Position numbers and translations under genes: made by a program. A stretch of 64,000 nt of DNA, from positions 2,232,001-2,296,000 of the forward strand of contig NZ_AP022596.1 of NCBI RefSeq assembly GCF_010731895.1. The letters are read 5' to 3'. The stretch is from Mycolicibacterium helvum. Lineage in GTDB: Bacteria > Actinomycetota > Actinomycetes > Mycobacteriales > Mycobacteriaceae. The notes beneath the pieces are model-generated. The model had not been told where the DNA came from. It searched no databases and worked only from the letters and a program-made list of their open reading frames with translations. Positions 4,344 through 18,211 of this stretch are shown piece by piece. The first letter of the stretch is position 1. Each line of letters begins with the position of its first letter.

Positions 4344-5573
4344 TTATGGGCGAGCTGTCGAGACCGCCGGCGAAACCGAGGTGGCTTCGCAGCGGCGATG
4401 ACGATGGTGCTCGACGTCGGTGGCGAAGGCGCCGAGTGCGCTGCGGATCATCCGGGCAGTCCCGTCGGGATGTCGACACGATCCTCGGCCTTCGACCAGC
4501 CGGACGATTCTGCGTATCTCCTTGACCAGGCTGTCGCTGACCCGGGTGTAGGCAAGGTCGTTGAGCAGCTGCTCCAGCCGAGGTAGGCCATTGCGGCACG
4601 GTCCGCACTGGCGGGCGCTCTGCTCGGCGAGATAACTGGCGATCTCCGCGGTGCGCGCGAGCCCGCACTCGCCGACCCCGAGGGCGTGAATGACCCCGGC
4701 ACCCGGGCTCGCCCCCAGTGCCTTCAAACCCGCCCGCGATAATCCGCTGCCCTCGAAGGCTTTCGCGGGAATCCAACTGCCGTGATAGCCACCGACGAGA
4801 ATCGCGCGCACAGTGCGAGGGTCGGTGCCGCCGTTGCGTTCGATCAAGCTCGTCAGGAGTGCACCGGTCGGAACCTCGATGACACCGGTGTTGTTCAGCG
4901 CTCCGGACAACGTGATCAGCAGGCTGCCGGGGTCTGCCTGATCGCCCACCGACCGGAACCAGCGCGGCCCGAATCGAGCGATCAGCGCGATATGAGCCAG
5001 TGTTTCAACGTTGTTCACCAAAGTCGGCCGTCCGCGAACCCCCGAGATCGCGGTCAAGACAGTGCGGTCGCGCGGCAGCGCGGGGCCGCCCTCGATCCGT
5101 CTGACAGCCGCGGACTCCTCCCCCGCGACGAACCTGTCGGGAGCCTCGACCACGGCGACCCGATACCGATCGAGCCCGGCGGCGCGGCGCTCGTCGAGCG
5201 CGCGGGTCACCGCCGGCACGGCGGCCGAGTGCACATACAGGTAGACCGTGTCGGCCTCGACTGCCGCTGCCGCGGCATCCAGGCCGTCGAGGACCAGATG
5301 CGGCGCCTGTGTCAGCAGGACCGCATCCTTACGGCTCAGCGGCTCGCCCTCGGCGCCGTTGCCCACCACTACCGACTTGGGTCCGGTGATCGCGGCGATC
5401 TTGCGAGCCGTCGGGAAACCCGCGCCGCCGCGCCCCGACAGGCCGGCCTGCTCGAGTAACGGGATCAAGTCCTGGCCGGCGGCATCGGGCAGGGCACCGA
5501 ACTGCAGGTGATGTTCGGCCAGACCGGGTCCCGGCGCGGCGAGCAGACGGGGAAGCTGCGGTGCCGTGGTCAT
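4344..5573 (-). CDS. NuoF-like NADH-binding flavoprotein (complex I 51-kDa family)
   Basis: 409 residues from ATG 5573, an ATGA overlap with the upstream membrane gene. FMN-binding GRGGAGFPT is at 47-55, the NADH/FMN loop GNGAEGEP at 71-78 and GEES at 151-154, followed by an SLBB-like region and the C-terminal Fe-S domain. Normally four cysteines bind the 4Fe-4S cluster; here C323, C326 and C366 are visible, and the first of the usual C-x2-C-x2-C triplet is replaced (SARQCGPC). It probably oxidises NAD(P)H and passes electrons to the ferric-reductase-like protein encoded upstream or to the ferredoxin at 17993. It is not near any nuo operon. Confidence 0.85.
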   Translation of the reverse strand: MTTAPQLPRLLAAPGPGLAEHHLQFGALPDAAGQDLIPLLEQAGLSGRGGAGFPTARKIAAITGPKSVVVGNGAEGEPLSRKDAVLLTQAPHLVLDGLDAAAAAVEADTVYLYVHSAAVPAVTRALDERRAAGLDRYRVAVVEAPDRFVAGEESAAVRRIEGGPALPRDRTVLTAISGVRGRPTLVNNVETLAHIALIARFGPRWFRSVGDQADPGSLLITLSGALNNTGVIEVPTGALLTSLIERNGGTDPRTVRAILVGGYHGSWIPAKAFEGSGLSRAGLKALGASPGAGVIHALGVGECGLARTAEIASYLAEQSARQCGPCRNGLPRLEQLLNDLAYTRVSDSLVKEIRRIVRLVEGRGSCRHPDGTARMIRSALGAFATDVEHHRHRRCEATSVSPAVSTARP

Positions 5574-6127
5574 GAGCGTCCGGTCTGCGCGTCGGCATAC
5601 TCGGTGTAGTTGGCCCGCAGCCGCCACACCAGGACGCCGGCCACGATCAGCGCGCAACACCCGGCGAACGCCAGGAACCACGCGCGATCGGTGTCGGTTC
5701 CGTTCCCGAGCGCATGCCCCAAAGCGATCGGCCAGAGCGCGTACGTCGCCCAGTGCACCGCGCGGAAGATCCGCAACCCGATCCGCTGACGCAGCAGGCT
5801 GGTGACGATCACCACGACGAGCACGTCAAAGGCGAGCGTGCCCAGGCCTTGCCACAGCGGTCGGTACGCGCCGAGGAACGGAACCACGAAGTCGACAAGT
5901 CGCAGCTGCGCGTACGGGTCGAAGAACAGCAGCCCCATGTGCAGCACGATCAACAGGGTTCCGGCCAACGCGGCGAAGCGGTGGACATCGGCGACGGCGA
6001 AACGCGGCAGCACGAACAACGGACGGCCCGATCGGGTGGCGATCCCCATTGCCAGCGAGACAGTGAGGAAGCCGAGCGCCGTGATGCCGGTGCCCCGGCC
6101 CAGGGCCCAGAGCGCCTCGCTGGTCAT
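5570..6127 (-). CDS. Ferric-reductase-like / cytochrome b transmembrane protein
   Basis: 185 residues from ATG 6127, overlapping the preceding gene's stop. Five to six hydrophobic segments are visible. Histidines in membrane-facing positions (DVHRFA, VLHMG, AVHWAT, LGHAL) fit the paired haem-b ligands of the ferric reductase-like transmembrane family. There is no FAD/NAD domain, so it must receive electrons from a partner, most simply the NuoF-like protein encoded directly downstream with an ATGA overlap. Predicted role: transfer of cytosolic electrons across the membrane. It is the middle gene of a three-gene leftward operon. Confidence 0.8.
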   Translation of the reverse strand: MTSEALWALGRGTGITALGFLTVSLAMGIATRSGRPLFVLPRFAVADVHRFAALAGTLLIVLHMGLLFFDPYAQLRLVDFVVPFLGAYRPLWQGLGTLAFDVLVVVIVTSLLRQRIGLRIFRAVHWATYALWPIALGHALGNGTDTDRAWFLAFAGCCALIVAGVLVWRLRANYTEYADAQTGRS

Positions 6128-6615
6128 GAGCCGCGGGTGCGGGTGACGTGCGGGGTGAAGTTAGGAGAGCTGCTTCCCACCGACGGCGTGTGACTGGTCC
6201 GGATGGGGAAGGCCGGCTGGGAGGCGGGCGCCTGGGTCTGCTGCACCGGGGCCTGCTGCACGGCGGTCTTCGGCGTGTACTGCGGCGCAGGCGTGGACCG
6301 CGGCGTGTAGGTCTCGACCGGCGCCTGGGTGACGGGCTCCGGGTTGGACGTCGGTGCCGGCTCAGGCACCGGGGGCGGCGGTGGTGGCGGCGTGTCGGTC
6401 GGTGAGACCGCCTCGGGTACTGCCGGGCCGTACACGACGGGGCTGGTAGCAGGATCGCCCGCTACGGAATCGGCGGCGGGGGCTTCCGCCGGGACGGGCC
6501 TGACGGTGTCGGCATACGCGAGGGCAGACGCACCGGCCACACCGGCCACACCGATGCCCGACAGCGCCCACGAAGCCACGGCGGCCCGGCGGAATCCCGA
6601 ACGAGGTGATTTCAT
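6124..6615 (-). CDS. Proline-rich exported protein of the ferric reductase operon
   Basis: 163 residues from ATG 6615; an upstream in-frame ATG at 6651 is less likely because it would put the start inside the 22-bp operator. A basic N-terminus (KSPRSGFRR) and one hydrophobic segment (about 14-33, ending SALAYAD) indicate a signal peptide or anchor. The rest is low-complexity, rich in Pro, Thr, Ala and Gln, with a run of seven prolines and repeated QAP/TP units. There is no FMN-binding domain and no cysteine. It may be a cell-wall-spanning linker. It is the first gene of the operon with the ferric-reductase-like and NuoF-like genes. Confidence 0.7.
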   Translation of the reverse strand: MKSPRSGFRRAAVASWALSGIGVAGVAGASALAYADTVRPVPAEAPAADSVAGDPATSPVVYGPAVPEAVSPTDTPPPPPPPVPEPAPTSNPEPVTQAPVETYTPRSTPAPQYTPKTAVQQAPVQQTQAPASQPAFPIRTSHTPSVGSSSPNFTPHVTRTRGS

Positions 6616-6634
6616 GCCGAGATACTGGCAACCA

Positions 6635-6656
6635 GTTCTTACAGCCTTCAAAGAAC
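6635..6656 (-). promoter_or_regulatory. Predicted response-regulator site upstream of the ferric reductase operon
   Basis: GTTCTT-N10-AAGAAC inverted repeat. The inner 20 bases match TTCTTACAGCNNTCAAAGAA, and 18 of 20 positions are identical to a second copy at 17010-17029 between the response regulator and apbE genes. It lies 20 bp upstream of the predicted start at 6615 and 15 bp downstream of the recD stop codon. The best candidate binder is the OmpR-type regulator encoded at 16265-16945. Confidence 0.65.
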
Positions 6657-6670
6657 CAACGCGAGCTTGC

Positions 6671-8413
6671 TCACACCGACTCGTCGCGCAACCGCCGGCT
6701 CAGCCCACTGGCCCGCACCGCCCTGCGCGCCACCGCGGCGTGCAACTGCTCGGCCGAGCCGATCACCCGCACCTTGGTCCTGGCCCGGGTGATCGCGGTA
6801 TACAGCAACTCCCGGGTCAGCAGCCGGGAATCCGCGGGCGGCAACAGCACGGTGATCTCGGTGGCCTGGCTGCCCTGACTCTTGTGGATGGTCATCGCGT
6901 GCATGGTTTCGATATCGGCGAGCCGACTTGTCGCGAGCTCGAGCGCGCCGTCGGCTCCGGCCATCACCGCTCGCAGCGCACCGCCACGCAGCACCGCCAC
7001 CCCGACGTCGCCGTTGTAGATGCCCAGTCCGTAGTCGTTGGCGGTGGCCAGAACTGGTCGGCCGACGTACCAGGACGCCCACAGCGGCATATCGGTCGCC
7101 TCGGTCAGCCAACGTTCGACCTGACGGTTCCAGTAGGTGGCGCCGTAGGGACCATTGCGGTGCGCGCACAGCAGCCGGTGCTCTTCCAACGTGGCCAGCG
7201 CCGCTTGCGCGTCGCCGAGTATCGCGGCCTCGCGCAGCCGCAGGGCATGGGGCACAACGATTCTGCGCAGGTGATCTGTCGGTTGGTCGGTGTCGATCCA
7301 TTCGATGTGCTCGCCACCGGCAGCCAGCACTTCGAGGGCACGATCTGCTTCACCGAGACGGATCGCGCTGGCCAGTCGGCCAATCGACACCCCGAACCGA
7401 TGTGACGTGACGAGCGTGGCGATCGGGGTGTGCCCCTGCGAGCCCAGGCCCTCGACCAGATCGGCCAACACCGCCCCGGCTTCGACCGACGCCAGCTGGT
7501 CCGGGTCGCCGACCAGTAGTAGGCGCGCCTGGGGGCGCACCGCTTCGACCAGTCGGGCCATCATCGTCAGCGACACCATCGATGTTTCGTCGACGACGAT
7601 CACGTCGTGCGGCAGCCGGTTGCCGCGGTGATGGCGAAACCGCGACGACGTGTCCGGGCGGCTGCCCAGCAACCGGTGCAGCGTGGTCGCCCGGAGCCCG
7701 GGTAACCGGTCGCGGTCAACGGATTCGAGGCCGTCGACCTCGAGCTGGACTGCCTCCTGCAAGCGGGCGGCCGCCTTCCCGGTCGGTGCGGCCAGCGCGA
7801 TGCGCAGGCGTGGCTCCTGGCTCAGCTCCGCCTGTTCGGCGAGCAGCGCCAGCAGTCTGGCCACCGTGGTGGTCTTGCCGGTGCCCGGACCGCCGGTGAG
7901 CACCGTCAACCCCTGCGACAGTGCGATCTCCGCGGCTCGTCGCTGCTCTTCGTAGCCCGCGGGGAAAAGCCGGTCGATGGCGGGCACCGCCCCCAGCGGT
8001 CGAACCGCGACCAGGCCCAGCACGTCGGCGGCGACCTGGCGCTCCTCGAGCCAGTACCGGTCCAGGTAGAGCAGGTCTTTCTCGAGGTGTAGCACCGGGG
8101 GCGAATCGAGCAACGGGCTGGCCGCCACGGCACCCAGCCACTCTTGCGCGACGGGCCATGGCAGGTCGGGCTTCGCGATCTGATCCTGCAGGGCAGGCAG
8201 GGCCACGCACACCGAACCGCCGCGCACCGCGCGCACCACGAATGCGACAGCCAGCGCCACCCGATCATCGGGCTCACCGGCCATCGCCGTCAGGCGTTGC
8301 GCCACAAGCACATCGGCGGACTCGATCACCTCGGCGTCGTTGAAGGTCCGCAGCAGCCCGTCGGCGTGCTGAGCATGCCGCCAATGCGCGAGGTCCACCA
8401 CATCCGCCGTCAT
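6671..8413 (-). CDS. recD: RecBCD subunit D, 5'-3' helicase
   Basis: 580 residues from ATG 8413, chosen because it overlaps the recB stop by 4 bp; the frame stays open further upstream but inside recB. SF1B helicase motifs: Walker A GGPGTGKT at 174-181, a DE box in VVDETSMV, GDPDQL (motif III), and the late UvrD-like HKSQGSQATEI and LYTAITRA motifs. It is the fast 5'-3' motor of the RecBCD helicase-nuclease acting on double-strand ends. In mycobacteria RecBCD is known to work mainly in single-strand annealing while AdnAB resects ends for recombination. It is the last gene of the recC-recB-recD operon. Confidence 0.95.
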   Translation of the reverse strand: MTADVVDLAHWRHAQHADGLLRTFNDAEVIESADVLVAQRLTAMAGEPDDRVALAVAFVVRAVRGGSVCVALPALQDQIAKPDLPWPVAQEWLGAVAASPLLDSPPVLHLEKDLLYLDRYWLEERQVAADVLGLVAVRPLGAVPAIDRLFPAGYEEQRRAAEIALSQGLTVLTGGPGTGKTTTVARLLALLAEQAELSQEPRLRIALAAPTGKAAARLQEAVQLEVDGLESVDRDRLPGLRATTLHRLLGSRPDTSSRFRHHRGNRLPHDVIVVDETSMVSLTMMARLVEAVRPQARLLLVGDPDQLASVEAGAVLADLVEGLGSQGHTPIATLVTSHRFGVSIGRLASAIRLGEADRALEVLAAGGEHIEWIDTDQPTDHLRRIVVPHALRLREAAILGDAQAALATLEEHRLLCAHRNGPYGATYWNRQVERWLTEATDMPLWASWYVGRPVLATANDYGLGIYNGDVGVAVLRGGALRAVMAGADGALELATSRLADIETMHAMTIHKSQGSQATEITVLLPPADSRLLTRELLYTAITRARTKVRVIGSAEQLHAAVARRAVRASGLSRRLRDESV

Positions 8414-11400
8414 GCCGCCACCTGCTGACCGTCGAGCAGGTCCGACAGGGCGACCACCAGGGCCGCGGTCGGCCGCCAGCTGAACACCCCGGCGGGATGC
8501 CCCTCGGCCGTGGGCGTAGCCGGCCCGCACATCCCCCGCACGAACAGATACAGCACCCCACCCAGGTGGCACTCCGGGTCGTAACCGGGTTGGCGCCAGC
8601 GCAGAAAACGGTGCAGAACAACGCTATACAGCAGCGCCTGCAATGGGTAGTCCGAGTGCAGCATCGCCTCGGCCAGACGCGGGCGCTGGTAGTCCGCAGC
8701 CGTCAGCGGCTTGTCCGGTTCACCGAGCCAGTTCGTCTTGTAGTCGACCACCAGGTAACGATGCCCCGCCTGGTCGGGAACCCGCAGCACCGCGTCGACC
8801 GAGCCGCTGAGATAGCCACGCAGCGGCTGTGACCCGAGCGCGCCGCCGCTCAACCGGTCGACGTAGGCGGCCAGCGGATCATCGGCCGGCAGGTGCGCCC
8901 GCAGCAGCCGGCCCACATCGGCGAGACGGATATCGCGCGCGCTCGGCCGCAGATCACCGCCGGCCAACGGGAACTCGAAATCCATCTCCCGCAACCGGTC
9001 CCGCAATCCGATCTGGCGCAGTGTCAACCCATCGGCGAGTGGGCCCAACGGGGTGTCGTGCAGCGGCACCAGTGCCGCAGCCAACTCGGCAGCGGGAACG
9101 TCGACAGGCCACCACACCGAGTGCCGCTCGATCTGGGTCTGGAGTTCGGCGGCGAGATCGGCCGCGAACGGATCGGCGGTCTCCAGCACCGCATGCACCA
9201 GGGTGCCGAACTTCGCGCCGCTCGGCAGATCCGCCATCGGCGATGGAACATCAGGGCCTGCAACCGGTTCCAGCAACGGAATGTCGCCGATCTCGTCGTC
9301 CAGTTCGCTCACCTCGGGTTCGCTGCTGACCCCGTCATTCTCGGCCGACCGGATCAGGCCCGAGTACGAGGTGCGCCGCCACGCGGTGTCGATGCTGCGG
9401 TGGAAGTGCCGTTCGTCGATATCGGCGGACGGACGTTCGTGCGGCACTGACGCCACGGTGGCAACAACCGAGTCCTCGATCACCGGGCCGCCGGCAGCCT
9501 CCCACTCTCGCAACCGGGCCAGCGCGTCGTCGTCGCTGATCTTGGCCGGCTCACAGCGATCCGGCACCGCCGACTCCCCGGGCCGACGGCCGCGCAGCAG
9601 CCGCGACAGCCCGCCGTTGGGTTCGTCCCACGACGGCGCCCACCACGCCACCACCTGGGCCTGCGCCCGCGTCATCGCAACATAGGTCAAACGGCTGTCG
9701 TCGCTGGCGGACTCCTTGCGACCCAGCCGCTCGACGGCGTTGTAGTCCGGACTGTCCTTGCCGCCGATGTGCAGGCAGCGCGCCCCCTCGTCGTGGAACA
9801 GAATCAGATCGCGCTCCTGGACATTGCGATTGAACGCGAACGGCAGGTACACGATCGGGTACTGCAGGCCCTTGCTGGCCCACACCGTCATGATCTGCAC
9901 GGCCGCGGCGTCACTGTCCAGGCGGCGGTTCCGTTCGGTCGCGCCGCTGCGCTCCTCACGCTGGTGACGCAGCCAGTCCCGCAGGGCCGGCAGGTTGTAG
10001 TGCTCGCGGTGAGCGGCGTCCTGCAGCAGCTGCGTCATGTGCGCCAGGTCGGTCATGTGCCGCTCACCGCCCACCCAGGACAACACCCGATCGGCCATGC
10101 CGTGCAGTTGGGCGGCCTCGAAGATGGCCGCGACGCCGCGCTCGCGGGCATGGGCGGCCCATTCGCGCAGGGTCTCGGTCATCCGGTCGGTCAGCTCGTC
10201 ACCGCCCGCGGCAAGGGTTTCGGCAGTCTCGCCGAAGAACATCGTCGCCGCCGCCGCTCGCACGAGCCCGGGCCGGTGCGGCTGGTCGAACGCCTCGAGG
10301 AGGCAGAGCCAGTCCTCGGCGGCCTCGGAGTCGAACACGTCCGAGTCGCCGGTGTAGACCGCGGGAATGCCCGCGGCGGTGAGCGCCCGGAAGCAGGTCC
10401 GGGCGTCCTTGTGCTTCTCGACGATCACCGCGATGTCGCGGGCTTGCACCTGCTCGCCGTCGAAGGTGGTGTCGCCGCTCAGCAGGGCACCGATGTCAGC
10501 CGCCAGATCCCTGCCGACGTGCGACCGCAGCTCGTCGATCGGCATGTTCTGGATGCCTCTGCGGCCGAACGTCTCCCGGCGAACCACCCGCAGCCGGAAC
10601 GGATCGGTGCGAGTGCCGCCGGCCAGTCGACTGCCGCGGTGATGTGCTTCGACACGGTGCACGACGATGCGATGGTCACCCAGCTCGGCACCGCCCAGCA
10701 CGACCTGCAGACGATCGACGAGCGCGGCGTCGCTGCGCCAGTTGGTGACGAGCGTCCTCTTGTCACCTGCGGTCTCGGCCGCCTGCAGGTAGGTGACGAT
10801 GTCACCGCCGCGGAAAGCGTAGATCGCCTGCTTCGGGTCCCCGATGAGGATCAGCGTGGAGCACTGGCTGAACGCCCGGTCGATGACCTTCCACTGCACG
10901 GGATCGGTGTCCTGGAACTCGTCGACCATGACGATCGGCCAGCGCTGATGCATCCGAAGCCGGGCCGGCGAATCGGGGCTGTCCAGCGCGTCGGCGAGCC
11001 GGCTGAGTAGATCGTCGTAACCCAGGACGCCCAGCCGCCGCTTGCGTATCTCCAATTCGCTTTGCACACATGTCGCGAAGTGCAGACAGACCGCGGCGCG
11101 CGAATCCGGATCGGGCTCACGTGGCCGCAGTTCCGTCGACGGGTTCTTCACCACCTCGCGGGCCAGCCGCAGCGCGTCAGCGTAGCTCAGCAAGGGGTCC
11201 TCACGCTCTCGGCCGAAGTGGGCGAGGTAGAGGTCGTCGACGATCTCACCGACCAGGTCGTCGAGGCTTTCGACCAGCGTGACCCCGGCGTCGGTGTCCC
11301 CGGCTACCCCAAGGGATCTCAGCACCAGCTGACAGAACTGATGCGTGGTGGCGATGGTGGCGGCGTCGAAACCGGCGAGCGCGTCGCGTAACCGGGTCCG

Positions 11401-11709
11401 GCGGTCGGTGCGCTGTTCGTCGGTGCCCGTGACAAGTTGCGCCACCACCTTATTGTCGCCAACCAGCGCGGGATCGTCGAATGCCCGTACCGCGTGCAGG
11501 ATTTGGCCCCGCACCCGTTCCCGTAGCTCCTGGCTCGCCGCCCGGCTGAAAGTGATGAGCAGCATCTGGTCAAGCGTCGCGGCGCCCTCGGCGACGTACC
11601 GGGTCACCAGACCCGCCAGAGCAAAGGTTTTGCCCGTGCCCGCGCTGGCCTCCAGCACAGTGGTGCTTCGGGGCGTCGGCAGGGGTCCGAGCAGATCGAA
11701 CGGCGTCAT
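8410..11709 (-). CDS. recB: RecBCD subunit B, 3'-5' helicase and nuclease
   Basis: 1099 residues from ATG 11709, a one-base overlap (TGATG) with recC. UvrD/SF1A helicase: Walker A SAGTGKT near residues 22-28, DEFQDTDP (motif II), GDPKQAIY (motif III) and a VTWASKGLQYP-type motif V region. The C-terminal RecB nuclease domain carries the catalytic VDYKTNW motif about 100 residues from the end, preceded by a conserved LVHAVLE segment. Full length for the family, with no frameshift seen. It forms the main motor and the only nuclease of the complex. Confidence 0.96.
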   Translation of the reverse strand: MTPFDLLGPLPTPRSTTVLEASAGTGKTFALAGLVTRYVAEGAATLDQMLLITFSRAASQELRERVRGQILHAVRAFDDPALVGDNKVVAQLVTGTDEQRTDRRTRLRDALAGFDAATIATTHQFCQLVLRSLGVAGDTDAGVTLVESLDDLVGEIVDDLYLAHFGREREDPLLSYADALRLAREVVKNPSTELRPREPDPDSRAAVCLHFATCVQSELEIRKRRLGVLGYDDLLSRLADALDSPDSPARLRMHQRWPIVMVDEFQDTDPVQWKVIDRAFSQCSTLILIGDPKQAIYAFRGGDIVTYLQAAETAGDKRTLVTNWRSDAALVDRLQVVLGGAELGDHRIVVHRVEAHHRGSRLAGGTRTDPFRLRVVRRETFGRRGIQNMPIDELRSHVGRDLAADIGALLSGDTTFDGEQVQARDIAVIVEKHKDARTCFRALTAAGIPAVYTGDSDVFDSEAAEDWLCLLEAFDQPHRPGLVRAAAATMFFGETAETLAAGGDELTDRMTETLREWAAHARERGVAAIFEAAQLHGMADRVLSWVGGERHMTDLAHMTQLLQDAAHREHYNLPALRDWLRHQREERSGATERNRRLDSDAAAVQIMTVWASKGLQYPIVYLPFAFNRNVQERDLILFHDEGARCLHIGGKDSPDYNAVERLGRKESASDDSRLTYVAMTRAQAQVVAWWAPSWDEPNGGLSRLLRGRRPGESAVPDRCEPAKISDDDALARLREWEAAGGPVIEDSVVATVASVPHERPSADIDERHFHRSIDTAWRRTSYSGLIRSAENDGVSSEPEVSELDDEIGDIPLLEPVAGPDVPSPMADLPSGAKFGTLVHAVLETADPFAADLAAELQTQIERHSVWWPVDVPAAELAAALVPLHDTPLGPLADGLTLRQIGLRDRLREMDFEFPLAGGDLRPSARDIRLADVGRLLRAHLPADDPLAAYVDRLSGGALGSQPLRGYLSGSVDAVLRVPDQAGHRYLVVDYKTNWLGEPDKPLTAADYQRPRLAEAMLHSDYPLQALLYSVVLHRFLRWRQPGYDPECHLGGVLYLFVRGMCGPATPTAEGHPAGVFSWRPTAALVVALSDLLDGQQVAA

Positions 11710-14700
11710 CAATCGTTACTCCCCTCGGCGCGCAGCATTGGCAGCCAGAGCCGAGCCGAGTACGCCCCGAGCCGGTTGTTCTCGCCCTCGTACTCTTCGC
11801 CGGGGCGAACCGGTTCCATCAGTGTCGTCAACGGGGCGTTGCGTCCCCACACCCGCAGACTTGCCGGCTGCTGGTCCTCGCCGGGATAGCGCCCAGACCG
11901 CCATCGGTAACCGGCCGCACGATCGGGGTCGTCACCGCAGTGCCTGGCAGCAGCCCACGCATAAGAAGTCTTGGGAGGTAGGGGAATCGGCTCACGTCGG
12001 CCAGCGTCGTAGATTGCGACGAGATCTTGCAGCAACTCGACCGCGTCGACGTCGGGCCGGCCGAGGCTCTCCCGGCGGGGCGCGGTTCCCCGCTTCGGCC
12101 TGCCGATGCACACCGCCGACCAGTCCCGTCGTGGCACATGAGCGAACAACGCCAACAACGGAATCCATGACTCCAGCAGGTGCCTGCCGTCCAACTTGGA
12201 GTACGTCACCGATACCAGCCGGTCGCCGAACACCGGCGCGACGGTTCCGGTCAGCCGCCGCCCGGAACCCAGGTCCACGTCCAGATCGATCGCGTGTGAT
12301 TCGGTGGTGCGGCAACGCATCGCCTCGCCAGCCAGCAACGCCACCTGGTCCCGTATCTGGGTGGCCTTGCGCCACCCCAGATTGCCGGGCGGCAGCGTAC
12401 CGCGGCGCCATTCGGCCTGCCGCGCTTCGTCCGGAGTCATACCGCCCACGATGTCGCCGAGCATCCGGTCACCGACCGCCCACTCCTCGAGCGCGTCGAT
12501 GTCGACGGGCATGGCGTCGCTCACCCCGTCGACATCCCACGGCAGGGTGAAGTCGAGGGCGCGGAAGAAACCCTTCACCGGGTCCTTGAAGAAGCCGACG
12601 AGATCAGCGAGCACGACATCATCCGGCGGCGGCGCGGGCAGCGGGCCCGAGATGAACCGCGACTGCTCGCCCCGATGGCCGGTCATGGCGCGTGCGGCGC
12701 TTCGCACTGTCGGATCGAAGCTGAAGGCGACGCCGGGAACCAGAGCACCACGTTCGACATTACGGATGTCGAAGGGCTGCAACGGGTGATGAACCACGAT
12801 GCGCTCACGGACCTGCTCGCCAGTGGTGACGTCGAGAGCGTCGAGCAGTTCGGCAAGCGGCACCGCCGGCGGGCGCGGCTGACCGGAGTACTCGTTGGCG
12901 CCGGTGTAGGTGATGACGAGCTTCTCGGTCGCCGCGCCGATCGCGTCGAGCAGCAATTGCCGGTCCTCCGAACGGATGTCGCGCTCCCCGGTCATCGGGT
13001 TGCGCGCCAGAACGTCGTCGCCGTCGACCACGCCGAGCCGCGGGTAACTGCCGTCGTCGAGACCGACCAGGCACACCACCCGGTGCGGCACCGAGCGCAT
13101 CGGCACCATCGTGCACACCGTCAGCGTGCCGGTGCGGAAGTTGGCCCGGGTCGGCCGCCCGGCGAGATGACGCGAGAGCAGCGCTCGGATGTCCGGCAGG
13201 CGCATCAGGGTGGCGCGCGACCCCGCGCTCGACAGCACGTCGTTGAACTCCCGTTGCAGCTGACTGATCTGCCATGCGTCGCCGTCGTCGACCCGGGTGA
13301 GCACGTCGATGCCGGAGGCGAGCGCCGACAGCCAGTCGCCCAGCGGCCGGACCCCGGTCAGCGCGTCGATGACGTGCTGCAGTCGGCCGACGTATTCAGC
13401 AAGCCGGCCGGCCAGTTCGACGCGGTTGCTGCCCACGTCGTCCAGCGGCAGGGTGGAGTCGATCCAGGCGTGGGAATCGTCGGACATCGCCACCCCGGCC
13501 AGCACCCGGTCGAGGCCGAAACGCCAAGTGTTGTGCACGAAGTCGACGCCGAACGGCTTGCGGTGCTCCTCGTCGAATCCCCACCGGATGTTGGCTTGCC
13601 GCACCCAGCGAGTGATGCCCTCCAGATCGTCGTCGGTGAAGCCGAACCGGGCCCGGACCGGTGCGGCCTGGGCCAGGTTGAGCACCTCGCTGGCGGTGAC
13701 CCTGCTGCCGGCGAGGGCGAGCAGCTGGGCGGCCACCCCGAGCAGCGGGTTGGTCTGGATCAGCGACCGGTCGGCCAGACGCACCCGCAACTGATGGGCG
13801 GGATGGGCGCCCGGCACGACGTCACCGAGACCGAAATCAGCGACGATCAGCGGCGCGTAGGCCTCGATGTCGGGGCACATCACCAGGATCTCGCGCGGTT
13901 CGAGGGTTGGATCGTCGGCAAGCAGCCCGAGCAGTACCTCGCGCAGAACGTCCACCTGTCGAGCCGGCCCGTGACAGCTGTGCACCTGCACCGATCGGTC
14001 GTCATCGCGCACTGCCCTGCGCGCCGGGCGCAGGGCATTGGCGGAGATGTCGGACTGCAGCCAGCCGAGCAGGGTGTCGGGGCGCTGGGCGGGATCGGCG
14101 CCGAGGAACTCATCGCTCGCCACGGTGTCTGGCATCCCTCGCTGCAGCTCACGCAGGTCGCGGCCGAGCGTGGCCAGCAGCGGATGCAACACCTGCCGAT
14201 GGCTGGTGTCAGCACGGCGCGGAATCGACCCCCGCAGTCCGGACAGCGCCGTCCACAGCTCGGCGCTGGGGTGCGGCACCCACAGGTGCAGCTCATGGTG
14301 ATCGGCGAGCGCGTCGAGCAACTCCATGTCGGTGCTCGACAACCTGGTGTGACCGAACAGTGACAGGCGCGCGGGCAGCTCAGCCCCTGATTCACGCAGC
14401 CGCGCAACGGTTTTGGCGTGCCTCACGTGCGGCGGGTCGATTCCCACCCGGTTGACGAGCGCTCGCCAGAGGTGCGGTTGCCAGCGCAGGTCGGAGTCGA
14501 GGTCACCGGCCTCGCCGCCCAGCCAGTCGATCAGCAGCCGCGGGCGCTGCCGGGCGTAGGAGGCGAACAGCCCCGCCAGCCGACGTGCCACCGCGTAGCG
14601 CCGACCCTGCCGCAGCTCCTGTTCCTCACCGATCTCGAAGTAGCCGAGGTGGGTGGCCAGGGTGTGACACCACGGTTCGCCGAGGCTTGCGTCGATGACC

Positions 14701-14996
14701 TCGAGAAGGGGCCACGACATCGCCTCGGGCGACCACGGGTCCTCGTCGCCGGTGCCGGTCAGTTCCGTGACGAGCGACGCCGGTGACCGGAAGGACACGC
14801 CCGCGCACACGCCGTCGGCGCCATCACCGCGGCCGAGTAGATGCGACAGCCGTTGGGACAGCCAGCGTTCGACCCCGCGAGCGGGCACCACGACGAGTTC
14901 CTCGGCGAACGGGTCGGATTGAGGCCTGGCCAGCAGCCCGCCGAGTCCGTCGGCAAGTGTGTCGGTGCGCTCGGCCCGGTGTACGTGCAGGGACAT
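11709..14996 (-). CDS. recC: RecBCD subunit C, Chi-recognition/scaffold subunit
   Basis: 1095 residues. Start ATG 14996 (MSLHVHRAERTD) is preferred over the in-frame start at 15020 because RecC proteins begin with this strand, and a TACGGT box 7 nt upstream would fit a leaderless message. It is a degenerate helicase-nuclease fold lacking functional Walker motifs, with recognisable RecC segments such as VVVPARGVERWL near the N-terminus and ILVMCPDIEAYAPLI in the middle. It begins the three-gene repair operon. It is preceded by the histidine kinase stop at 15048 in the same direction, 51 bp away, so read-through is possible. Confidence 0.95.
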   Translation of the reverse strand: MSLHVHRAERTDTLADGLGGLLARPQSDPFAEELVVVPARGVERWLSQRLSHLLGRGDGADGVCAGVSFRSPASLVTELTGTGDEDPWSPEAMSWPLLEVIDASLGEPWCHTLATHLGYFEIGEEQELRQGRRYAVARRLAGLFASYARQRPRLLIDWLGGEAGDLDSDLRWQPHLWRALVNRVGIDPPHVRHAKTVARLRESGAELPARLSLFGHTRLSSTDMELLDALADHHELHLWVPHPSAELWTALSGLRGSIPRRADTSHRQVLHPLLATLGRDLRELQRGMPDTVASDEFLGADPAQRPDTLLGWLQSDISANALRPARRAVRDDDRSVQVHSCHGPARQVDVLREVLLGLLADDPTLEPREILVMCPDIEAYAPLIVADFGLGDVVPGAHPAHQLRVRLADRSLIQTNPLLGVAAQLLALAGSRVTASEVLNLAQAAPVRARFGFTDDDLEGITRWVRQANIRWGFDEEHRKPFGVDFVHNTWRFGLDRVLAGVAMSDDSHAWIDSTLPLDDVGSNRVELAGRLAEYVGRLQHVIDALTGVRPLGDWLSALASGIDVLTRVDDGDAWQISQLQREFNDVLSSAGSRATLMRLPDIRALLSRHLAGRPTRANFRTGTLTVCTMVPMRSVPHRVVCLVGLDDGSYPRLGVVDGDDVLARNPMTGERDIRSEDRQLLLDAIGAATEKLVITYTGANEYSGQPRPPAVPLAELLDALDVTTGEQVRERIVVHHPLQPFDIRNVERGALVPGVAFSFDPTVRSAARAMTGHRGEQSRFISGPLPAPPPDDVVLADLVGFFKDPVKGFFRALDFTLPWDVDGVSDAMPVDIDALEEWAVGDRMLGDIVGGMTPDEARQAEWRRGTLPPGNLGWRKATQIRDQVALLAGEAMRCRTTESHAIDLDVDLGSGRRLTGTVAPVFGDRLVSVTYSKLDGRHLLESWIPLLALFAHVPRRDWSAVCIGRPKRGTAPRRESLGRPDVDAVELLQDLVAIYDAGRREPIPLPPKTSYAWAAARHCGDDPDRAAGYRWRSGRYPGEDQQPASLRVWGRNAPLTTLMEPVRPGEEYEGENNRLGAYSARLWLPMLRAEGSND

Positions 14997-15047
14997 CGCC
15001 ACCACCGTAGACCGCCCCACCGACGGCCGAAACGCGGTGCGCGCAGA

Positions 15048-16268
15048 TTATGCCGGCGGCGCTGCGGGCAGGGTCAGGGTGAAGGTCGCACCCTCGCCGG
15101 GTACCGATGTCACCGCGATATCGCCCCCGTGCGCATCGGCGATCTCGCGGACCAGCGCCAGCCCGATGCCGTGCGGTTCCCGGTCCGCCCGGGTGGTGTG
15201 TTCGACGCCGTGCGAGAACCGGGTGAACAGCGTCGCCACGGCGTCCGGGTCGATACCCACCCCGTCGTCGGCGACCGCCACACTCACCTTCGGGCCGGCG
15301 CGCCGCACCCACAGTTCGACCGTCCCGCCGCCGTGCTCGTGCGCGAGCGCGTTGTCGACCAGAGCGGTGAGCGCCCGACGCAGCGCTGCCACCGAACCGA
15401 TCACGTCGAATCCGGCTGAGCCGTTGACACTTTCGCACTCGCAGTTCAACGTCACACCGATCGACTGCGCATAGGGGGCCATGCTGTCGCGCACCGACAC
15501 CGCCACCGCCGATAGGTCCACGCGATCGCGTGGCGGCTTGCCTGCGGCCATCGTGGCAGCGGCGAGCAGATCCTCGACGATGTCGCCCAGCGCCCGGGTG
15601 TCGGCGACCAGCGCGTCGGCATCCTTCTGCAGCGCGTGCACATCGGCAGTGCCGACCCGAAGCGCCAGCATCTGCGCCCGGGTGTGCAGCACCGTCAAAG
15701 GTGCCCGCAGCTCATGGGAGGCATCGGCGACGAACCGGCGCTGCAGGGCCAGCGCATTGGCCAGTGGGCGCACCGACCGCCGACTGAAAAGAGCGACCAC
15801 AGCGATCGACGCGAGGATGCCCGCCAGCTCCGCGAACCCCAGCGCCATCAGCAGCCGGTTCCGTCCCGCGTGGTACGGCGCCAGATCCGTCATCGCCACC
15901 ACCCGGCCCTCGGGGCGGTCAACCACCAGCGTGCGGTACTCCCGTCCGTTGGCGTAGAGATCGCCATAGCCGGTAGCACCAGTCAGCAGCGGAACCCCAG
16001 GCTCGCCGCCGTCGCTGGTCGAGATGTGGCCGTTGTCGTCCCGCAGCGCCAGCTCCATATCCGAAGGCGGATCGTTGGCGTCGTCGGCGGTCATGGCCAG
16101 CTTCTGGAGTTCCGCACCGATCTGGCGGTTCTGCGCCTGCAGATACACCGCGAACACCACGCCGCCCACGACCAGCAGCACCAGCGCGAGCGCCACCGAG
16201 GCTTGCACCGCAGCGACCCGACCGGCCCGCTTCACGACGGTGAGGTCGTTGGGTGGAGCCGCTGTCAT
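15048..16268 (-). CDS. Sensor histidine kinase of an OmpR-type two-component system
   Basis: 406 residues. Two membrane helices at about 21-43 and 140-162 enclose a roughly 95-residue extracytoplasmic sensor region with no recognised fold. The HisKA motif DASHELRAP has the phospho-acceptor histidine at 185. The ATPase domain has an N box (VDNALAHE), a G1 box (DDGVGID) and a G2 box (HGIGLALV). Its start overlaps the response regulator stop by 4 bp. It probably senses an envelope or redox signal and controls the redox genes on both sides of recBCD. No HAMP domain is obvious. Confidence 0.92.
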   Translation of the reverse strand: MTAAPPNDLTVVKRAGRVAAVQASVALALVLLVVGGVVFAVYLQAQNRQIGAELQKLAMTADDANDPPSDMELALRDDNGHISTSDGGEPGVPLLTGATGYGDLYANGREYRTLVVDRPEGRVVAMTDLAPYHAGRNRLLMALGFAELAGILASIAVVALFSRRSVRPLANALALQRRFVADASHELRAPLTVLHTRAQMLALRVGTADVHALQKDADALVADTRALGDIVEDLLAAATMAAGKPPRDRVDLSAVAVSVRDSMAPYAQSIGVTLNCECESVNGSAGFDVIGSVAALRRALTALVDNALAHEHGGGTVELWVRRAGPKVSVAVADDGVGIDPDAVATLFTRFSHGVEHTTRADREPHGIGLALVREIADAHGGDIAVTSVPGEGATFTLTLPAAPPA

Positions 16269-16945
16269 TCGAGCCCGAATCGGTAACCGGTTCGGTGCAC
16301 GGTGCGCACCACCTGCTTGCCCAGCTTGCGGCGCAGATAGTGCACATACAGGTCGACCGCTCCGGTGGTCTCCGCGCCGTCGAACACCGACTCGAGCAGC
16401 TGGGCCCGGCTGAACACGCGCTTGGGCGCGGCCATCAGTACACCCAGCAGCGATGCCTCCCGCTCGGAGAGTTCCACCTCAATGCCCGCCGGGGTGGCTC
16501 CGGCCACCCGGCGGGTGACCCGGTCGAGTCGTAGACCGCCGGCTTGCACCACGGTCGCCGCACTGTCGGCGCGCCGGACCAGCGCGCGGACACGGGCCAG
16601 CAGTTCGGGAATCTCGAACGGTTTGACCAAGTAGTCCTGGGCGCCGGCGTCCAGGCCCTCGACGCGGTCCTCGACCGCGCCGCGGGCGGTGAGTATCAGC
16701 GCAGGAGTCGCGATGCCGCGCGACCTCAGCAGCGCCACCAAGTCCGAGCCGTCCATCACCGGGAGCCCGCGATCGACGATCATGGCGTCGTAGTCGCCGG
16801 TCAATCCACGGTGCATGCCTTGCTGACCGTCGTAGGCGGCATCGGTCCGGTAGCCCTGCTCGTTGAACAACTCGACGAGCATCGCGCTGAGCGCGCGGTC
16901 ATCCTCGACCACCAACAGTGCGGGCGACAGATTCCGCGCGGACAC
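16265..16945 (-). CDS. OmpR/PhoB-family response regulator
   Basis: 226 residues from GTG 16945. The receiver domain has the acidic pair E14-D15-D16, phospho-acceptor D58 (MIVDRGLP), T86 and K108 (YLVKPF). The C-terminal winged helix (about 130-226) contains the LSEREASLLGVL and DLYVHYLRRKLG segments typical of OmpR DNA-binding domains and ends in the TVHRTGYRF hairpin. It is co-transcribed with the histidine kinase. The intergenic region upstream holds two direct TTACAGC-type repeats, a likely autoregulatory site shared with the divergent apbE gene. Confidence 0.93.
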   Translation of the reverse strand: MSARNLSPALLVVEDDRALSAMLVELFNEQGYRTDAAYDGQQGMHRGLTGDYDAMIVDRGLPVMDGSDLVALLRSRGIATPALILTARGAVEDRVEGLDAGAQDYLVKPFEIPELLARVRALVRRADSAATVVQAGGLRLDRVTRRVAGATPAGIEVELSEREASLLGVLMAAPKRVFSRAQLLESVFDGAETTGAVDLYVHYLRRKLGKQVVRTVHRTGYRFGLE

Positions 16946-16990
16946 GTAGCGAGCGTGCCATGCCGATGGCGTACGCCGCGCACAAAAGCG

Positions 16991-17029
16991 TTTGTTACAG
17001 CGCTAGCGTTTCTTACAGCGCTCAAAGAA
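16991..17029. promoter_or_regulatory. Repeated operator between response regulator and apbE
   Basis: Two direct repeats, TTTGTTACAGCGCT at 16991-17004 and TTTCTTACAGCGCT at 17009-17022, start 18 bp apart. The second one forms a palindrome-ended element (TTCTT-N10-AAGAA, 17010-17029) with 18 of 20 bases identical to the element at 6636-6655. The core ACAGC recalls half-sites of mycobacterial OmpR-type regulators such as PhoP and MtrA. Position between divergent genes fits control of both. Confidence 0.65.
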
Positions 17030-17081
17030 TGTCCCCTCAGCATGGCTGCATGCAGTCACCTGACTCTGGATCTCGCGACTC

Positions 17082-17996
17082 ATGAGCCAATCCGCCCTGG
17101 TCAACCTCGCCCAGTGTGAGTGGACCAGGTGGAGCACCGGAATGCATCTGCTGGTCACCGAGCCTGCGGCGCTGTCACCGGCGCGGGCAATCGTCGATAC
17201 CGTCCTCGACGATGTCGAGGACGCCGCGTCGCGGTTCCGGCCCGACTCCGAGATCTGCACGCTGGCCGCCGCCGGCGGGGTCCGCACAGCGGTCAGCCCC
17301 GTGCTCGCCGCGCTCATCGATGCCGCGCTCGCCGCGGCCCGCTGGACTGATGGCGACGTCGATCCGACTGTCGGCTCGGCGATGATTGCGCTGGGCTACG
17401 ACCGCGATATCGCCGATCTCGATCCGTCGACGCCGCGATTGAGTTCACTCACAATTCCCTCCGATTGGTCGATGGTTGAGTTCGACGGGCGCAGCGTGCG
17501 ACTACCCGCCGGCGTGCTGCTCGACCTCGGCGCCACTGCCAAAGCGCTGGCCGCCGACTGGTGCGCGCAACGCGTCCATACCCAAACCGGCAGCGGCGTT
17601 CTGGTCAATCTCGGCGGCGACATCGCCACTGCGGGAGCTCCTCCCAACGGCGGTTGGCATGTCCTGGTGCAGGACACCGACGACGACCCGGCCAGCCAGG
17701 TCGCGCTGGGCGCCGATACCGGCCTGGCCACGTCGAGCACCCGCCGCAGGCAGTGGTGGCGCGACGGTGACCTCGTCCACCACATTCTCGAGCCCCGGAC
17801 CGGCCGCCCGGCCGATCCGGTGTGGCGCAGCGTCAGCGTCGCAGCAGGCAGCTGCCTGGCTGCCAACACGATCAGCACGGCCGCGATCGTCCGCGGGCAC
17901 CGCGACCCGGATTGGATTGCCACACTTGGCGTTCCAGCCCGGCTGATCGATCGCACCGGCGCCGTGCGCACCGTAGGAGGGTGGCCACAATCGTGA
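17082..17996 (+). CDS. apbE: ApbE-family FAD:protein FMN transferase
   Basis: 304 residues from ATG 17082. ApbE motifs are visible in order: SRFRPDSEI (S-x-F-x-x-x-SE-like), VDPTVG, the DLGATAKALAAD helix (usual D-x-G-x-x-AKG-x-x-x-D; the Gly after AK is Ala here), VNLGGDI, and HHILEPRTGRP near the C-terminus. These enzymes attach FMN covalently to a Thr or Ser of extracytoplasmic redox proteins. No lipoprotein signal is visible, so it may act before or during export. It overlaps the ferredoxin gene by 4 bp. No obvious acceptor with a flavinylation motif is encoded in this window. Confidence 0.88.
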   Translation: MSQSALVNLAQCEWTRWSTGMHLLVTEPAALSPARAIVDTVLDDVEDAASRFRPDSEICTLAAAGGVRTAVSPVLAALIDAALAAARWTDGDVDPTVGSAMIALGYDRDIADLDPSTPRLSSLTIPSDWSMVEFDGRSVRLPAGVLLDLGATAKALAADWCAQRVHTQTGSGVLVNLGGDIATAGAPPNGGWHVLVQDTDDDPASQVALGADTGLATSSTRRRQWWRDGDLVHHILEPRTGRPADPVWRSVSVAAGSCLAANTISTAAIVRGHRDPDWIATLGVPARLIDRTGAVRTVGGWPQS

Positions 17997-18211
17997 ACAA
18001 GAGCCGAAGTCGTCTGCACATCGACTGGACCCGCTGCGACGGCCGCGGGCTGTGCACCGAACTGCTGCCCGACGTGTTCACCCGCGACGACTGGGGCTAT
18101 CCGCTGGCTCGAGACGGCTCTGCTGAGCCGGCGATCCCGCCGGAGGTAACGAAGTTCGCGAAGGCTGCGGTCAAGCGGTGCCCGCGGCTGGCGCTGCGGC
18201 TGCTGGACTGA
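17993..18211 (+). CDS. 3Fe-4S ferredoxin
   Basis: 72 residues from GTG 17993, which overlaps the apbE stop (GTGA); an AGGAGG at 17975-17980 serves as ribosome site. Three cysteines, C15, C21 and C63, in the pattern CDGRGLC...CP. The position where 4Fe-4S ferredoxins have a fourth cysteine is Arg here, the 'C-x2-X-x2-C-(x)n-CP' type common in mycobacteria. It probably shuttles electrons within the redox module with the NuoF-like protein, although such ferredoxins more often serve P450s and none is adjacent. Confidence 0.85.
   Translation: MNKSRSRLHIDWTRCDGRGLCTELLPDVFTRDDWGYPLARDGSAEPAIPPEVTKFAKAAVKRCPRLALRLLD

Follow-up and report, generated by a model that had tools for sequence, protein, structure and literature searches.

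Why should two almost identical 20-bp elements lie on either side of the recBCD genes in a mycobacterial genome? The question is raised by a window of 64,000 nucleotides (nt) of Mycolicibacterium helvum (contig NZ_AP022596.1, positions 2,232,001 to 2,296,000), in which the copies TTCTTACAGCCTTCAAAGAA (6636-6655) and TTCTTACAGCGCTCAAAGAA (17010-17029) agree at 18 of 20 positions and stand 10.4 kb apart. One copy precedes the genes for a proline-rich protein (PRO), a ferric-reductase-like protein (FRD) and a NuoF-like protein, and the other lies between the genes for an OmpR-type response regulator (RR) and for ApbE. The first-pass annotation, whose coordinates and degree of identity for the two copies were reproduced, had proposed that this regulator controls a redox regulon made up of two parts. 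Our analysis makes it very likely that the 20-mer is the operator of the RR encoded at 16265-16945, and that it would serve the redox module together with a distant fkbM gene.

With up to three mismatches allowed, a scan of the window returned the two 20-mers and nothing else, and 100 shuffles returned none. Across the genome, a single contig of 6.40 Mb, the exact matches were these two alone, with a single further match at three mismatches against two for the reversed-pattern control; the genome scan that the annotation had called for revealed no spread over unrelated places. The element is an imperfect palindrome (dyad) with the consensus TTCTTYGARNNCTNNAAGAA, a character that the annotation had missed, and its palindromic forms in relatives include TTCTTTGAGCGCTTAAAGAA and TTCTTCGAAGCCTCGAAGAA. 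Since the window's two copies point in opposite ways relative to their genes, symmetry is the feature common to both promoters. When the palindromic pattern was combined with a −10 hexamer, the genome gave seven matches, against none for the reversed control, and three of the seven were the promoters described here. The remaining matches with the hexamer, at 1717767 (two mismatches) and at 271551, 2538030 and 3433426 (three mismatches), were set aside, as were the further matches to the pattern alone at 271565 (two mismatches) and at 461851, 1717767, 4288152 and 5461237 (three mismatches). The match at 1717767 is located inside an open reading frame (ORF). The one at G000:C1:271565-271584 (L111), an almost perfect version of the motif's inner palindrome, is followed 17 nt later by a possible GTG start codon and may represent a fourth target or a chance occurrence.

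The two elements share a promoter layout. Operator 1 (6636-6655, minus strand), which reads TTCTTTGAAGGCTGTAAGAA towards the PRO gene, ends 20 nt before the PRO ATG; operator 2 (17010-17029, plus strand) reads TTCTTACAGCGCTCAAAGAA towards apbE. At both, a CAGYAT hexamer stands 8 nt past the site, as part of the extended −10-like element TGC-CAGTAT at operator 1 (6622-6630, minus strand), which is TGNCANNNT-like in most relatives, and as CAGCAT on the apbE side of operator 2 (17038-17043, plus strand). For the genus, promoters were kept for 42 of 45 FRD operons, and removing redundancy at 85% identity left 33 to be aligned. Distances of 17-24 nt to the start codon were accepted, and this filter left out G123, G263 and G268, the first two of which do have sites; for G286 the alignment took the site on the apbE side. 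In the 33 non-redundant promoters the TTCTTYGA and AAGAA arms were near-invariant and the centre was variable, and the flanks 5' of the site were mostly uninformative, except for an A 2 nt before it. After the site came TGNCANNAT, the start codon stood at a distance of 20-22 nt, and TGNCANNNT was the usual form of the element between the site and the first start codon of the operon. According to the excerpt available of a study of M. tuberculosis (PMC3898074), TANNNT is found at 73% of primary starts, no conserved −35 element was detected and TGN marks stronger promoters. The hexamer described here likewise has A as its second base, T as its last and TGN before it, but CA replaces TA in the extended −10. 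The short distance from site to start codon implies that the mRNAs are presumably leaderless, and the site itself would be an activator site standing in for the −35 box of such a promoter.

The association between site, operon and regulator was evaluated in 297 genomes of the genus, among which the RR (E ≤1e-60) was present in 47 and FRD (E ≤1e-30) in 45; both, by our reading, were present in 43. The exact pattern TTCTTNNANNNNTNNAAGAA occurred in 43 genomes, comprising 39 of the 47 with the RR and 4 of the 250 without it. Some of these matches are not at module genes: those of the TTCTTCAACTACTC type keep turning up in a single conserved context without any module gene. Outside-module matches alone explain six of the 39 RR genomes (G004, G024, G053, G136, G144 and G151) and three of the four RR-less ones. 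After non-module matches had been removed by hand, the pattern remained in 33 of 47 genomes with the RR versus 1 of 250 without (Fisher p 1.5e-31, not corrected for shared ancestry). Eight RR genomes had no exact match; in six of them a diverged site precedes PRO or the RR, and in G184 one precedes fkbM. Once diverged sites are included, 46 of the 47 RR genomes have a site before a gene of the module or before fkbM, the exception being G090, in which neither site nor module was found and the kinase match is shorter.

When 2.6 kb were searched with up to five mismatches, 43 of the 45 FRD operons had a site, and in every case a start codon came 20-22 nt after it. The motif does lie upstream of orthologues in other mycobacteria, a point that the annotation had proposed to check. 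The two siteless operons (G163 and G268) sit at contig edges, and each of these genomes has a site on another contig. Fifteen of the 43 operons are more than 0.75 Mb from the RR gene on the same contig (G004, G009, G098, G151, G284, G293 and G295) or on a separate, in some cases short, contig (G018, G024, G053, G126, G156, G167, G176 and G194); linkage is therefore not the explanation of the association between site and RR. In 47 loci (821,613 bases) searched with up to four mismatches, 55 matches fell in the 120 bp preceding PRO, apbE or the RR, and four fell elsewhere, these being the fkbM sites of L014, L016, L025 and L028; the reversed pattern gave none. The relatives from Intrasporangiaceae (L050-L054) showed no site at up to five mismatches. 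The two-part redox regulon of the annotation was upheld in so far as the site marks both halves and tracks the RR even when the operon is elsewhere; binding and activation by the RR are its predicted part.

A third promoter emerged far from the window. A weaker match in the M. helvum genome stands 21 nt before the ATG of the gene at 1,215,913-1,217,043, which encodes an FkbM-domain methyltransferase (PF05050) and lies 1.03 Mb from the RR gene. Twenty-four genomes of the genus had an fkbM match at E ≤1e-60, giving 30 gene copies; an earlier placement could not locate the gene in L232 and L250, and a tblastn repeat, by which the upstream sites were read, took in all 30. All eight RR-bearing genomes of this set have one copy with a site at one or two mismatches, 21 nt before the ATG, whereas in the 16 RR-less genomes the 350 bp preceding the gene contain no site (best, five mismatches). 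A wider upstream search returned a 4-mismatch stretch in G180, without the promoter layout. By eye, a CANNNT hexamer was at the expected place in only four of the eight positives. In L016, a homologue of fkbM lies between the kinase gene and apbE and has a site of its own. From these sequences the fkbM promoter is predicted to be the third target of the regulon.

We propose that an RR dimer would occupy the two arms TTCTTYGA/TCRAAGAA, which form an inverted repeat with a 6-4-6 core. From about −41 to −22 relative to the presumed leaderless start, in the place of the −35 box, the bound RR would, upon a presumed signal, recruit RNA polymerase to the extended −10 element (TGNCANNNT). Its targets in this genome would be the PRO-FRD-NuoF operon, the apbE-ferredoxin transcript and the distant fkbM gene, and further, with looser spacing, the RR's own operon. 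The products may form a membrane electron route leading from NADH through the NuoF-like protein and ferredoxin to the ferric-reductase-like haem protein and thence outside, and ApbE and the proline-rich surface protein would accompany this chain.

The regulator side of operator 2 departs from this layout. A third partial copy of the element, noted by the annotation at 16991-17004, is real and belongs to an 18-bp direct tandem duplication carrying an extra half-site (16987-17022, minus strand), whose units at 16987-17004 and 17005-17022 are identical at 17 of 18 positions by eye. The duplication was not present in three relatives examined for it (L041, L004 and L005), so the partial copy is a local feature and no conserved site. 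A box of direct repeats with 9- or 18-bp spacing was rejected, as the 18-bp period is that of the duplication. The regulator promoter has an extended −10-like element, TGGCACGCTC (16951-16960, minus strand), 49 nt from operator 2; this distance equals 31 nt plus the duplicated 18, and 30-32 nt is a common class in relatives.

Several observations weigh against the assignment of the site to the RR. The spacing on the regulator side varies (5-6, 23, 30-32, 37, 49 and 52 nt), which raises the possibility that autoregulation differs in kind from the control of the other targets, and in L012, L015 and L019 the RR comes after the operon and lacks a site of its own at up to five mismatches. The palindromic pattern by itself does not discriminate in the M. 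helvum genome, where up to three mismatches gave eight places against four for the reversed control, so weak matches alone mean little. Six further fkbM copies in RR genomes (58-73% identical) are without a site, and 13 of the 16 RR-less homologues are only 42-49% identical, the close negatives being G289, G172 and G241. The co-occurrence counts ignore shared ancestry, and many OmpR-family regulators bind direct repeats, as stated in the excerpt of a study of the regulator AgrR (PMC7380067). Finally, G172 (L142) and G241 (L207) keep the FRD operon and its site and have no close RR (best identity 43-44%) and no ApbE. These two genomes, and the fact that many one-component regulators typically use symmetric dyads, would suit a different, unlinked dimeric regulator for which the two-component system is merely one target. 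We consider such a binder improbable: site and RR co-occur tightly, fkbM homologues have the site only where the RR exists, and the absence of ApbE as well from G172 and G241 means that decay of the other half explains them. The two are read here as having lost the RR-apbE half and left the other behind, which is equally compatible with another binder. They also provide a possible natural test of site decay. If the RR does bind, it might instead repress by occluding the −35 region, with phosphorylation or a signal lifting the block; the site covers that region and stops just short of the extended −10. Repression nevertheless appears unlikely to us, since a strictly spaced site in the place where the excerpt on M. 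tuberculosis (PMC3898074) reports no conserved −35 would, by analogy with what has been proposed for AgrR, fit activation better.

The remaining explanations concern the arrangement of the locus itself. Two near-identical 20-mers just 10.4 kb apart could in principle be a chance or mobile repeat; the shuffle and reversed-pattern controls, the fixed spacing in dozens of genomes and the unconserved upstream flanks make this explanation negligible. The recC-recB-recD genes (6671-15020, minus strand; recB and recC as labelled in the annotation, recD from a family scan) lie between the two halves, and recD ends at 6671, 15 bp from operator 1, just as the annotation had it. The annotation also described recBCD as trapped between the two sites. 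If these genes belonged to the regulon, DNA-break repair would be tied to redox signalling in this lineage. In favour of this, RR, kinase and recC run in the same direction, and 27 nt separate kinase and recC in the window (51 nt when recC is taken to start at its internal ATG) as well as in L004, L005 and L041, and 15 nt do so in L049. The gap measures 263-8170 nt in the nine remaining relatives of the 13 measured, however; in many module loci the stretch retrieved gave no recBCD match, and a search in front of recC in the window yielded no site at up to five mismatches. Membership of recBCD in the regulon is thus doubtful: the genes adjoin the module in some lineages only, and the long gaps and the loci without a match indicate a local neighbour, apparently a bystander. 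Read-through from the RR operon into recBCD is possible in the lineage of the window.

The RR favoured as the binder (16265-16945, minus strand) scored above the cut-offs for both the receiver domain (PF00072) and the C-terminal winged-helix Trans_reg_C domain (PF00486), as expected of the OmpR/PhoB family, and adjoins the gene of a sensor histidine kinase (15048-16268, minus strand; PF00512, PF02518), the expected partner of such a regulator. On the side of operator 2, apbE, encoding a protein of the FAD:protein FMN transferase family (17082-17996, plus strand; PF02424), is followed by the gene of a ferredoxin-like 4Fe-4S protein (17993-18211, plus strand; PF13459). Beyond operator 1 are the genes of PRO (6124-6615, minus strand), which is presumed leaderless and whose product has an N-terminal hydrophobic segment, of the ferric-reductase-like (MsrQ-like) transmembrane protein FRD (5570-6127, minus strand; PF01794) and of the NuoF-like protein (4344-5573, minus strand; PF01512, PF10589). 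Many relatives have RR-kinase and PRO-apbE-FRD-NuoF-ferredoxin in one cluster (labels being tblastn matches to the window genes). In the lineage of the window the module is split, with RR-kinase and apbE-ferredoxin upstream of recC and PRO-FRD-NuoF after recD. Nine clusters have PRO and RR divergent (L030, L033, L037, L039, L040, L044, L046, L047 and L057), with a TGNCANNNT element and a start codon on both sides of the site, the start codons standing 20-21 nt from it; one operator may serve both genes there. L043 has the same two-sided layout with PRO not matched. In all, 26 sites have a start codon 19-23 nt away on both sides, some of these being apbE or chance codons. A mycobacterial-type module was also borne by a contig labelled as a Bifidobacterium breve metagenome-assembled genome (L018), probably a binning error.

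An 11-codon leader ORF, MQSPDSGSRDS (17050-17085, plus strand), presumed leaderless, starts 20 nt past operator 2 and overlaps the apbE start by ATGA, which suggests translational coupling. Its counterparts in three relatives, MWSPRSGSRDS (L004), MRSPRSGARDS (L005) and MTSPDSGPRGS (L041), follow the pattern MxSPxSGxRxS. Because it resembles the PRO start MKSPRSGFRRA, which is conserved as MxSPRSGFRRA, the leader ORF may be a remnant of the PRO N-terminus that stayed with apbE when PRO-FRD-NuoF broke away. Where no full PRO was matched, in L016, L025, L028 and L086, ApbE carries a PRO-like start (MDSPGS) as a fusion, placed immediately after the operator.

PRO had no Pfam match in profile scans, and its C-terminus is conserved, ending in RGS. 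The listing of PRO-like proteins took in ApbE fusions and one regulator besides PRO; among the 46 distinct PRO proteins, three of them with aberrant ends, 43 end in GS and 42 in [RKH]GS, behind a proline-rich variable middle. ApbE gave one match in the whole genome, the one encoded with the module, and by eye has no obvious signal peptide. No match to the FMN-binding domain PF04205 was found anywhere in the genome; a control on 14 known genomes detected the domain in 4. Two candidate flavinylation motifs were rejected: TGAT in the sensor domain of the kinase is present in the window and replaced by SGPA in L016 (by eye), and [ST]GA[ST] in PRO occurs in 2 of the 46 proteins. The sole ApbE encoded with the module, the lack of an FMN-binding-domain protein, the secreted-looking start of PRO and its conserved C-terminus ending in RGS lead us to suggest, very tentatively, that PRO might be a new, non-canonical ApbE substrate or a flavin carrier of a regulator-controlled electron-export chain.

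The closest parallel for the operator is AgrR. According to the excerpt of its description (PMC7380067), AgrR recognizes a 6-4-6 inverted repeat with the box ATKACANNNNTGTMAT and the half-site ATTACA, appears to be a type II activator at the majority of the promoters studied and has extra half-sites at some operators, and the inverted repeat bound by CopR and PcoR fits within 16 bp. The system of the window resembles AgrR, as far as that excerpt shows (PMC7380067), in having an OmpR-family regulator, two 6-bp arms with a 4-bp spacer in the −35 place and an extra half-site near one operator; the CTTACA arm of the window shares TTACA with ATTACA. The 6-4-6 geometry and type II placement of AgrR and CopR are found here with presumed transcription starts. 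Unlike in AgrR and CopR, the arms are mostly TTYGA/TCRAA with outer TTCTT/AAGAA, the targets are redox genes rather than metal efflux genes, and the promoters are mycobacterial and presumed leaderless. The RR scored 153 bits against NCBIfam TIGR01387 (the CopR/CusR/CzcR heavy-metal subfamily), below the cut-off of 279.2; it would work like AgrR and CopR and is hence not classed among them on this score. PhoB and PhoP boxes consist of direct repeats that replace the −35 element; an activator box in the −35 place is common to both arrangements, but the repeat is inverted here. Concerning the module, the excerpt of a survey of flavinylation systems (PMC8238504) describes MsrQ-like clusters as mainly actinobacterial, 31 of them with a NuoF-like protein. 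Like those NuoF-containing clusters (PMC8238504, same excerpt), the module brings together a PF01794 protein, ApbE and a PF10589 NuoF-like protein. It thus has the PF01794 protein and ApbE of an MsrQ-like system and lacks the FMN-binding-domain substrate that is typically present; in contrast to the clusters in that excerpt (PMC8238504), the genome gave no PF04205 match, and a ferredoxin, a proline-rich protein and a two-component system are added.

A literature search returned no title or abstract on this regulon; most subscription journals were outside its reach, which makes this weak evidence of novelty. A mycobacterial two-component system for which no study was found thereby gains a predicted binding site, a promoter layout and a regulon including an unlinked gene, and a redox module is defined whose ApbE has no recognized substrate in the genome. 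The divergent clusters are a likely case of one operator that takes the place of the −35 box for leaderless promoters on either side. Standing at one fixed distance before electron-transfer genes in many environmental mycobacteria, the site is most likely the switch of the co-encoded regulator.

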